This document shows positions 61,381-63,474 of a stretch of DNA of 64,000 bases, in pieces (the first letter of the stretch is position 1; the number at the start of each line of letters is the position of its first letter). Origin of the DNA: Aeromicrobium sp. Root236 (GTDB taxonomy: Bacteria; Actinomycetota; Actinomycetes; Propionibacteriales; Nocardioidaceae); NCBI RefSeq assembly GCF_001428805.1, contig NZ_LMIS01000001.1, forward strand, positions 2,612,452-2,676,451. Reading direction: 5' to 3'. The notes beneath the pieces are model-generated. The model was not told where the DNA came from. It ran no database searches and saw nothing but the letters and a program-made list of their open reading frames with translations. The position numbers were made by a program, and so were the translations under genes.

Positions 61381-61679
61381 GCCGACTTCTCGATCGAGTG
61401 GACGCGGGCGTGCAGCATGTTGCGCTGCTGCAGGGCGGCGCGCAGCGCGCGGTGCAGGCCGTCCTCGAGGAACAGCTCGCCGTTCCAGCTCACGACGTGC
61501 GCGAACAGGTCGCCGAAGTAGGTCGAGTCGTCATCCAGGAGGTGCTCGAGGTCGAGCTGGGTCTTGGTCGTCGTCAGGTCGTCGAGGCGCACTTGGGACG
61601 GCGAGATCTGCGCCCACGTGCTCGGGGTCAACCCGTGGTCCGGGTAGGGGCGCCCCTCACTCACCCTCCTGAAGATCAC
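61377..61679 (-). CDS. Small conserved actinobacterial protein, VapB-antitoxin-like in name only
   Basis: A 100-residue protein: MIFRRVSEGRPYPDHGLTPSTWAQISPSQVRLDDLTTTK and DDSTYFGDLFAHVVSWNGELFLEDGLHRALRAALQQR. I recall homologues in databases labelled VapB family antitoxin, but no PIN-domain toxin lies beside it; here the partner is a cell-wall LytR_C protein. The function is unknown; a ParB/Srx-like or regulatory fold is possible from the EDGLHRALRA segment. Confidence 0.75.
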   Translation of the reverse strand: MIFRRVSEGRPYPDHGLTPSTWAQISPSQVRLDDLTTTKTQLDLEHLLDDDSTYFGDLFAHVVSWNGELFLEDGLHRALRAALQQRNMLHARVHSIEKSA

Positions 61680-61898
61680 CCGGTCAGTGTAGACAGGCTG
61701 CCCGGAGGTCGGCGGTGGTGCGTGGCCAGATCAGGAACTTGTTCCGAAAACGTCGGTGCGGGACGGTAGTCTCAGGGAACAAATCAGGGTTGTCTCTGGT
61801 TGCCGTAGGCAACAGCCGGCATACAGAGTGACAACAGGAAGGCGCACCTGGGCGCCTTCGGCCGGGCTCCGGCCCGGTATCAAGGCGCAGGAGGCGTG
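61680..61898 (+). ncRNA. Structured leader upstream of PAP2 gene, possible regulatory RNA
   Basis: An outer stem GTTGTC/GACAAC with CTCTG/CAGAG (61789-61798 with 61824-61835) encloses a perfect hairpin GTTGCC-GTA-GGCAAC (61799-61813). Two further perfect hairpins follow: GAAGGCGC/GCGCCTTC (61838-61859) and CCGGGC/GCCCGG (61862-61877), then AGGAGG. No T-tract is present. An inverted repeat GGAAC-TT-GTTCC lies upstream at 61734-61745. The fold is inferred by eye and matches no riboswitch class I could recognise. Confidence 0.45.
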
Positions 61899-62702
61899 AT
61901 GACCCAGTCGTCACAGCAGCAGACAGGGCGTACCGAAGTCGTACGCCGATCTGGTGTGCCCTTGGGCCTCAAGCGTGGCGCGATCGAGCTGACGTTCCTC
62001 GCGATCCTCTACGTCGGTTACAGCGCCTCGCGCCTGCTGGCCTCCAACGACTTCGCCCCGGCCCGTGGCCGCGCGCTCGACGTGCTGTCGTTCGAGAAGT
62101 CGTGGCGCATCGACGCCGAGTCGTGGCTCAACGACAAGTTCGTCCAGTACGACTGGCTGGGCCTGTTCGGCAGCTACTGGTACGCCACGACCCACTACAT
62201 CGCGACCGCGGCGGTCCTCATCTGGATCTATCGCCGCAGCGTGTCGGAATACGTGACCGCCCGCCGCGCCCTGGTGTTCGCCACGATCATCGGCCTCTCG
62301 TTCTACCTCGTGATGCCGACCGCTCCGCCGCGCATGATCAGCGGCATGTACGTCGACGTGCTCAGCCTGCACTCGGCTGCCGGCTGGTGGGGTGCCGACG
62401 CGTCGGCGCCCAAGGGCCTCGGCGGCATGACCAACGAGCTCGCGGCCTTCCCGTCGCTCCACGCGGGCTGGGCGCTCTGGGTCGCGATCGTGCTGATCCG
62501 CGCCGGCGTTCCCAAGATCGTGCAGGCGCTCGGCATCATGTACGCCGCGACCATGACGATCGTGATCGTCGGCACCGGCAACCACTGGGTGCTCGACGCG
62601 GTCGTCGGCTGGATCGTGGTGCTGGCCGCGTTCGGCGGCGTCATCGCCTGGGAGAGACGCAGTCCGGTCGTTGCCCATGAGGACGCAGCACTCACGCTCT
62701 GA
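61899..62702 (+). CDS. PAP2 superfamily membrane phosphatase / inositol-phosphoryl transferase-like
   Basis: A 267-residue membrane protein with about six hydrophobic segments. The PAP2 signature is split as PTAPPRM (motif 1 region), AAFPSLHAGWALW (motif 2, His) and GTGNHWVLDAVVGW (motif 3, His/Asp). The layout, with a long first half, resembles the AUR1/inositol phosphorylceramide synthase-like PAP2_3 group. It acts on a lipid phosphate at the membrane's outer face. ATG 61899 follows AGGAGG by 4 bases. Confidence 0.86.
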   Translation: MTQSSQQQTGRTEVVRRSGVPLGLKRGAIELTFLAILYVGYSASRLLASNDFAPARGRALDVLSFEKSWRIDAESWLNDKFVQYDWLGLFGSYWYATTHYIATAAVLIWIYRRSVSEYVTARRALVFATIIGLSFYLVMPTAPPRMISGMYVDVLSLHSAAGWWGADASAPKGLGGMTNELAAFPSLHAGWALWVAIVLIRAGVPKIVQALGIMYAATMTIVIVGTGNHWVLDAVVGWIVVLAAFGGVIAWERRSPVVAHEDAALTL

Positions 62703-62715
62703 CACAGTCGAGCCT

Positions 62716-63474
62716 GTGAACTCTGTCCTGCACCAAGCCGCGCACGGGGTCAGGTTCGACTGGGGCCCAGTCGGTGGCGCAGCAGTCGCCGAGGGAGCCG
62801 ACGTCGCCGTCGTGGTCGACGTCCTGTCGTTCTCGACGTCGCTCAGCGTCGCGGCCGACCTCGGCATCGTGGTGCTGCCCTATCCCTGGGAGGCCGAGGA
62901 CGCGCCGACCTACGCCGCCCAGCACCGCGCGGTCCTCGCCCTCGGTCGCAGCGTCGCGGGCCCCGGCGAGGTGAGCCTGTCGCCGGTGAGCGTACGCGCG
63001 GCCGAGCCCATGGAGCGGCTCGTCCTCCCATCGCCCAACGGCTCGGCGATCTCGGTGCAGCTGGCCTCCGTCGTGACGACGGTCGTGGGTGCGTCGTTGC
63101 GCAACGCGGCCGCGGTGGCCGACTGGATCGCCCGCGAGCACGACGCCGAGACCGCGTCGATCGCGATCGTCGCCGCCGGCGAACGCTGGCCCGACGGATC
63201 GTTGCGCCCGGCGATCGAGGACCTGTGGGGCGCCGGCGCCGTGCTCGCGGCGCTCGAGGACCATGACTGGCCGGGGCTGTCGCCCGAGGCCGCGATGGCC
63301 GCCGACGCCTACCGGTTGATCGCCGGTCGCGAGGAGTCGCACCTCATGGCGTGTGCCAGTGGCCAGGAGCTCGTCGGGGCCGGCTTCGCCGCCGACGTGG
63401 CGGTCGCCGCCGAGGTCGGCACCAGCACGACGGTGCCGCTGCTCAGCGACCGTGGCTTCATCGCCGCACCCTGA
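62716..63474 (+). CDS. comB: 2-Phosphosulfolactate phosphatase family protein (ComB-like)
   Basis: A 252-residue protein: VVDVLSFSTSLSVAADLG, LPSPNGSAISVQL, GASLRNAAAVADWI and AAGERWPDGSLRPAIEDLWGAGAVL are the ComB motifs (NGS, ERW..G..R...ED). ComB removes phosphate from 2-phosphosulfolactate in coenzyme M synthesis; in actinobacteria, which lack coenzyme M, the true substrate is uncertain. GTG 62716 was chosen as start; ATG 62677 would overlap the PAP2 gene by 26 bases. Confidence 0.84.
   Translation: MNSVLHQAAHGVRFDWGPVGGAAVAEGADVAVVVDVLSFSTSLSVAADLGIVVLPYPWEAEDAPTYAAQHRAVLALGRSVAGPGEVSLSPVSVRAAEPMERLVLPSPNGSAISVQLASVVTTVVGASLRNAAAVADWIAREHDAETASIAIVAAGERWPDGSLRPAIEDLWGAGAVLAALEDHDWPGLSPEAAMAADAYRLIAGREESHLMACASGQELVGAGFAADVAVAAEVGTSTTVPLLSDRGFIAAP

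Follow-up and report, generated by a model that had tools for sequence, protein, structure and literature searches.

Comparative evidence for a probable regulated promoter and hairpin-bearing mRNA leader ahead of a PAP2 gene in Aeromicrobium

The region ahead of a PAP2 gene in Aeromicrobium sp. Root236 was analyzed in a stretch of 64,000 nucleotides (nts), hereafter the window, and compared with the corresponding regions of related genomes. The explanation we favor, with slightly better than even confidence, is that a regulated promoter here gives rise to an mRNA with a short, structured 5′ leader. According to this explanation, an activator, probably a response regulator of the OmpR/PhoB type, would bind tandem repeats of 11/12 bp at 61773-61804, which overlap the -35 element, and would recruit RNA polymerase to a weak promoter composed of GGTTG, 18 bp and CAGAGT. 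Transcription would begin near 61835-61838 and give a leader of about 60 nts, so that the PAP2 mRNA would carry hairpin 1 at 0-3 nts from its 5′ end, then hairpin 2, AGGAGG and the ATG at 61899. The 5′-terminal hairpin would shield the mRNA end and, with hairpin 2, space the ribosome site; in this way it would set how long the mRNA lasts or how much protein it yields, and would not act as a ligand sensor. The features are as follows, all on the forward strand.

61734-61745, + strand: GGAAC-TT-GTTCC dyad (GGAACTTGTTCC), remnant of the final codons (..NLFRKRR) of a HerA_C-family gene
61767-61772, + strand: TAGTCT, which may be the -10 of an additional promoter further upstream (P1); TANNNT here in 15/17 orthologues
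61773-61784, 61785-61795 and 61796-61804, + strand: three degenerate tandem direct repeats, probable activator operator; block kept in 17 aligned orthologues
61789-61835, + strand: two-part outer stem with inner hairpin, as drawn in an initial annotation; without support as RNA
61800-61805, + strand: -35-like TTGCCG of promoter P2, within GGTTG, invariant in 17/17
61824-61829, + strand: -10-like CAGAGT of P2, spacer 18; NANNNT at spacer 17/18
61835-61838, + strand: predicted transcription start, 6-9 nts past the -10, deduced from P2 and the start codons of relatives
61838-61859, + strand: hairpin 1, 8 bp with a 6-nt loop, GAAGGCGC-N6-GCGCCTTC; predicted mRNA 5′ end
61861-61878, + strand: hairpin 2, 6-7 bp with a 4-nt loop, CCGGGC-TCCG-GCCCGG (61862-61877); recurs in orthologues
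61889-61894, + strand: Shine-Dalgarno AGGAGG; AGGA invariant in 17/17
61899-62702, + strand: PAP2_3-family gene, a lipid-phosphate phosphatase-like membrane enzyme (Pfam PF14378, E 2.6e-48)

The PAP2 locus and the remains of an upstream gene

The genome holding the window is 3.92 Mb in size, and the genes upstream of PAP2, VapB-like and LytR_C, lie on the other strand. The downstream neighbor (62671-63474) is 2-phosphosulpholactate phosphatase-like (PF04029) and overlaps or abuts the end of PAP2. A PAP2 match at E 1e-10 or better is present in 36 of 49 Aeromicrobium genomes, and the 22 highest-ranking loci (L017-L038, each at E 1.1e-100 or better) were taken as the orthologue set; the nearest named orthologues are from Aeromicrobium sp. 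Root344 (97%), sp. 9AM (94%) and A. ginsengisoli (93%). By eye, a leader and a Shine-Dalgarno sequence precede PAP2 in 20 of the 22 loci, those without being G033 and G022. Alignment A1 contains 17 of the 20 leadered loci, to which G013, G046 and G032 were added afterwards by position, and the loci L022-L024, omitted from alignments A1-A3, A5 and A6, were restored for the 20-orthologue count of boxes and stems. In the PAP2 protein tree, whose rooting is arbitrary, 19 of the 20 leadered loci group with L117, a locus of another genus in which no such conserved block was seen by eye, and L024 falls outside.

ATG at 61899 was preferred over GTG at 61896 as the PAP2 start on inspection of the orthologue alignment by eye. 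The position is ATG in 15 of the 17 aligned orthologues and GTG in G035 and G037, and the preceding codon is GTG in just 8, which makes 61899 the most likely start.

The GGAAC-TT-GTTCC dyad had been taken as a possible operator in the initial annotation, and this role was rejected by comparison with the orthologous loci. In relatives, the bases matching GGAACTTGTTCC sit in codons for ..KNLFRKRR or alike, at the C-terminus of a HerA_C-family protein encoded just upstream of PAP2 (Pfam HerA_C, E 2.5e-155 and 5.2e-154 for two of these genes). Decay of this ATPase gene can be followed as a series, with the frame open in G041, closed to 48 codons in G010, and reduced in the window and G020 to its tail of about nine codons (61734-61760). 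A HerA_C search of the window's genome at E 0.001 gave no match. Since the same bases are coding in relatives, only the tail is left in the window and G020, and HerA_C is absent from the genome at that threshold, the comparison identifies the dyad as what remains of the 3′ terminus of a degraded HerA-like ATPase gene.

The tandem-repeat block and the promoter-like boxes

The consensus of the block over the 17 orthologues is GGAA..TCAGGG..C.GGTTG. When the block was compared with itself, identity at a lag of 11 nts was 0.386 versus 0.243 ± 0.057 in permuted columns (z 2.5, the top of 14 lags), and that at lag 12 was 0.318, a modest signal in keeping with degenerate repeats. Among the homologues, lag-11 identity reaches 0.60-0.64 in G039, G007, G045 and G180 and 0.52 in G022, the block of G033 peaks at lag 12 (0.50), that of G014 is flat, and in G190 and G189 the self-similarity scan gave no lag-11 peak. 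The repeats are a candidate operator, probably of an OmpR/PhoB-type response regulator, whose tandem operators they resemble in period and place only; activation rather than repression would be the mode of control. As in the tandem operators of the PhoB/PhoP type, namely PHO boxes and the PolR site GTTCACnnnnnGTTCaC described in PMC6754071, the PAP2 repeats run head to tail with a period near 11 nts over the -35-like GGTTG. Unlike PHO boxes, the PAP2 unit is TCAGGGT-like and degenerate and does not match the standard PHO box GTTCACC-N4-GTTCACC, whose consensus is given in PMC6754071 and which is found on the coding strand upstream of pstS of the same genome (L125). By eye, 61773-61804 contains no GTTCACC units on an 11-nt period, and identity of the block with a PHO box (PhoP/RegX3) was rejected against this pstS box. 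An MprA-type box, considered from the literature search, is also among the rejected candidates.

The window's genome has 16 Trans_reg_C matches, none of which could be linked to the block. A strict pattern run over the 16 response-regulator loci gave one match, at L081, about 1.25 kb from the matched domain, and this pattern would miss the window's own block. Searching the genome with a regulon pattern gave 62 matches versus 122 for the backward control, that is, no enrichment. The pattern CAGGGTGANCNCNGGG with at most one mismatch matched 24 places (L093-L116) versus 8 for its backward control, and among these 24 stretches a tandem array was seen by eye in one only, L093, which is the same place as L076. 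There, at 1497-1535 of L076, a tandem TCAGGG(T) array with 12 + 11 bp spacing lies before an ABC-transporter ATPase gene and resembles the PAP2 block.

Downstream of the repeats, NANNNT follows TTGNNN at 17 or 18 bp in all 17 aligned orthologues, and in 20/20 when the other three are included. At non-overlapping offsets, NANNNT occurred in at most 2/17 in the offset scan, in which offsets beyond 20 enter the GC-rich hairpin. The first T of TANNNT is absent from this box in all 20 orthologues, and a consensus scan for a sigma-70-type promoter found none. In M. tuberculosis, 73% of primary starts have a TANNNT whose centre lies 7-12 bp ahead of them, and 27% of starts are without it (PMC3898074).

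The start codons of relatives bear on the same box. In G033 and G022, where the hairpins are absent, the block and the box precede PAP2 directly, in the arrangements AAGGAT-7-ATG and CAAGAT-7-ATG, and the start codon lies 6-7 nts past a -10-like hexamer in G039, G007, G014 and G045 and in G180, G190 and G189 of another genus (all by eye). These distances fit leaderless mRNA, as at leaderless actinobacterial promoters, and by comparison support the box as the promoter in the window too, whose clade differs in having a two-hairpin leader and AGGAGG. If the box is the promoter, transcription in the window is predicted to start at about 61835-61838, and the mRNA would then open with hairpin 1.

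Folding of the supposed leader

All the stems named in the initial annotation, as well as the dyad and AGGAGG, are where it placed them, and the region is free of terminator-like T-tracts and densely folded as it described. The predicted folding energy of 61778-61910 is -64.2 kcal/mol versus -48.2 ± 4.1 in 200 dinucleotide shuffles (z -3.9), none of which was as low. The minimum-energy fold departs from the annotated drawing, and the inner hairpin partly re-pairs. In that drawing, the outer stem pairs GTTGTC (61789-61794) with GACAAC (61830-61835) and TCTG (61795-61798) with CAGA (61824-61827), and the inner hairpin pairs GTTGCC (61799-61804) with GGCAAC (61808-61813). Over the 17 orthologues in alignment A6, 62.3% of the cells of the outer stem and inner hairpin are paired versus 62.1% in shuffled columns, and none of five measures exceeded the 500 shuffles; for the inner hairpin alone, 73.5% are paired. 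The drawn register of the outer stem does better than slid registers (37-46%), as stems drawn from a single member tend to, and all ten outer pairs are present in three of the 17 only, namely the window, G020 and G010. As leader RNA, then, the outer stem and inner hairpin show no covariation beyond shuffles, and they overlie the promoter-like block. Because of this overlap, the outer stem is probably outside the main transcript, and one half of what had been read as structured RNA is probably promoter DNA. Apart from the two small hairpins, which look like kept mRNA features, what had been called a leader most likely consists of promoter DNA together with the remains of a gene.

Hairpin 1 gave a different result by the same tests. 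In the 17 leaders, 96.3% of its cells are paired (45-55% in slid registers), double changes occur in six of the eight pairs, and four of the five measures lie above all 500 shuffles, the fifth being reached by 27 of them. When the stem was searched for in each sequence, a stem of at least 6 bp was found after the -10-like box in 19 of 20 orthologues (8.5 on average and 13 at most over 500 shuffles), and the best stem begins 5-12 nts past the box in 19/20. Taken singly, the stems have p 0.05 or less in 13 of the 20 and are not significant in the other 7. In G046 a stem of unrelated sequence stands in the place of hairpin 1, and the stems of G013 and G036 have diverged. Since the stem starts 5-12 nts after the -10 in 19/20, hairpin 1 probably caps the PAP2 mRNA. 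That the place of the stem is constant and its letters change argues for a general structural role at the mRNA end or the ribosome site, not for ligand sensing.

Hairpin 2 was scored per sequence, because MAFFT could not align it well; a covariance model kept that register. A stem of at least 5 bp is present in 12 of the 17 sequences, versus a mean of 7.4 and a maximum of 14 in shuffles of these related sequences, and it is below 5 pairs in G024, G006, G021, G008 and G041. The summed stem score was 92.5 versus 69.7 ± 4.0 and was reached by none of 1000 shuffles, and the summed energy was reached by one of 200. The comparison thus points to a hairpin that recurs, more weakly than hairpin 1 covaries.

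When the first codons were included in the fold, the probability of hairpin 1 was at least 0.70 in nine of the 17 sequences (G024, G036, G044, G047, G008, G002, G035, G021 and G037) and below 0.4 in eight (the window, G020, G010, G041, G034, G006, G048 and G038), in which other pairings win. In the window, the rival pairing joins GGCGCCUU with AAGGCGC (61882-61888), which lies before the Shine-Dalgarno sequence, and in the window and its three nearest relatives the 3′ arm of hairpin 1 pairs with AAGGCGC or alike. The predicted probability that the Shine-Dalgarno sequence is unpaired is 0.84 in the window and ranges from 0.03 to 0.98 across the 17. The window's alternative helix is 67.2% paired in the orthologues (31-46% in slid registers), a value that 46 of 500 shuffles equalled or passed, and one of its seven pairs shows a double change. 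These modeled competing folds of hairpin 1 are the main hint of a switch, and hairpin 1, being local, would be expected to form first during transcription. An RNA switch acting through AAGGCGC finds no support in the covariation of the alternative helix.

The initial annotation had asked for an Rfam scan, and at the gathering cut-off this gave no match in the 64-kb window. A permissive scan of 61650-61960 gave a single match at chance level (E 8), on the other strand. A covariance model of the 17 leaders with both hairpins (R1) recovered these 17 in the 49 genomes, and the next best hit had E 0.0016; below this value, no element shared with other genes was found in the 49 genomes. Searches of the literature for a PAP2 leader RNA or riboswitch in Actinobacteria, for Aeromicrobium RNA motifs and for PAP2 direct repeats gave no report of this leader among the matches listed. 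This pair, in which the covarying hairpin where the mRNA is predicted to start is followed by another, is undescribed in the literature searched, but small and known in kind. The alignment of leaders that had likewise been proposed gave a divided answer, in that hairpin 1 covaries and hairpin 2 recurs more weakly, and the outer stem shows neither. Of the proposed regulatory RNA leader, therefore, a structured 5′ leader with hairpins next to the Shine-Dalgarno sequence is retained, and the ligand-sensing part finds no match in Rfam and is at odds with the unrelated stem of G046.

Alternative explanations and comparison with known systems

If the whole of 61773-61895 were one regulatory RNA, the outer stem would be an aptamer sensing a lipid head group or second messenger, and hairpins 1 and 2 would be its expression platform. 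The excess of folding (z -3.9), the strong sequence conservation of 61773-61804 and the other pairings open to the 3′ arm of hairpin 1, some of them by or over the Shine-Dalgarno sequence and predicted to win in 8/17, speak for this idea. Nevertheless, we consider it highly improbable, as the outer stem does not covary, promoter-like boxes recur at fixed spacing within the conserved block, this block is kept in leaderless relatives, Rfam gave no match at the gathering cut-off and, when relaxed, only the E 8 match on the other strand, and the alternative helix, paired at 67.2%, has a double change in a single pair. A riboswitch was rejected on related grounds, namely the outer stem without covariation, the promoter-like boxes of the block, and the simple stems of hairpins 1 and 2, neither of which looks like a ligand aptamer. 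A narrower version, in which the two-hairpin leader alone is a new small cis-acting RNA of Aeromicrobium PAP2 genes, is less so, but still improbable. Such an element may bind a protein, or may alternate between hairpin 1 and helices that the 3′ arm of this hairpin forms by or over the Shine-Dalgarno sequence (in the window, GGCGCCUU with AAGGCGC around hairpin 2), and its origin may lie in the gain of a leader by a gene that had none. If so, a lipid-phosphate enzyme would be controlled both at transcription start and through the fate of its mRNA.

Tandem GC-rich stems have a shape like that of actinobacterial terminators. Hairpins 1 and 2, as perfect GC-rich stems in tandem, could accordingly be T-less terminators forming a conditional attenuator of PAP2, which seems quite unlikely: a search for a GC-rich stem with a T-run in 61700-61920 found none, 61836-61895 contains by eye no ATG, GTG or TTG for a leader peptide, no antiterminator pairing is well supported, and hairpin 2 is shorter than 5 bp in 5/17. 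It is also unlikely, though less so, that P1 (TAGTCT, 61767-61772) is the main promoter, with a leader beginning in the repeats and a bound protein or RNA controlling readthrough. In 15 of 17 orthologues a TANNNT precedes the repeats, versus 7.1 expected from mononucleotide shuffles, mostly at two distances (about 6-9 or 33-35 nts before the repeats), and the stretch from GGTTG to hairpin 1 has excess folding, with a summed energy of -163.0 versus -128.6 ± 9.7 and none of 200 shuffles as low. By eye, however, no such box was seen in the corresponding part of G033 and G022, whose start codons agree with P2 alone; G008 and G035 likewise have none there. The spacing between P2 and either the first stem or the start codon of leaderless genes is also less variable. 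Of the alternatives, we regard as the least improbable, but still rather unlikely, that the hairpins serve mainly to lower or buffer translation, or as a site of processing by RNase III or RNase E, and not to protect the 5′ end. The spread of predicted Shine-Dalgarno accessibility among orthologues (0.03 to 0.98) is consistent with this, as is the deletion of a double 5′ UTR hairpin in M. smegmatis, which raised protein and left half-life unchanged (PMC11728522). The place of the stem near the predicted mRNA end is, however, fairly constant, and a translation damper needs no such constancy.

For the favored explanation, a regulated promoter with a hairpin-capped leader, the closest precedents are 5′-terminal stem-loops that can block 5′-end-dependent decay, with E. 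coli ompA and papA and B. subtilis aprE as classical cases (cited in PMC3997798); stem-loops are also said to block pyrophosphohydrolases in PMC4681348. As in these stabilizers, the PAP2 stem-loop lies near the (predicted) mRNA 5′ end and upstream of the ribosome site, and its stem is kept while its letters change. It differs in that the PAP2 start is a prediction, and in the one actinobacterial test found, that of the M. smegmatis esxB 5′ UTR, the double stem-loop did not stabilize the reporter mRNA, and protein was highest without both hairpins (PMC11728522). This direct test was negative for mRNA life. The PAP2 genes form a natural series within one gene and one family, comprising leaderless, hairpin-capped and swapped-hairpin members, which could be used to test the importance of a 5′-terminal hairpin in actinobacteria. 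They also illustrate that what looks like the densest section of an RNA leader may in fact be promoter DNA, and offer a simple comparative way to tell the two apart.

The more distant relatives are not all leaderless. Among the 19 Nocardioides loci L170-L188, of which all but L172 were viewed, 11 have a Shine-Dalgarno sequence of their own and a single hairpin. In these 11 (L171, L173, L174, L176, L177, L179, L180, L182, L183, L184 and L188), a conserved block around GACCCTGGTGTTG lies about 65 nts before the PAP2 start and is followed by the short hairpin and the Shine-Dalgarno sequence. The gene before this block resembles lexA. In the hairpin of the GACCCTGGTGTTG group, double changes occur in two of the five predicted pairs.
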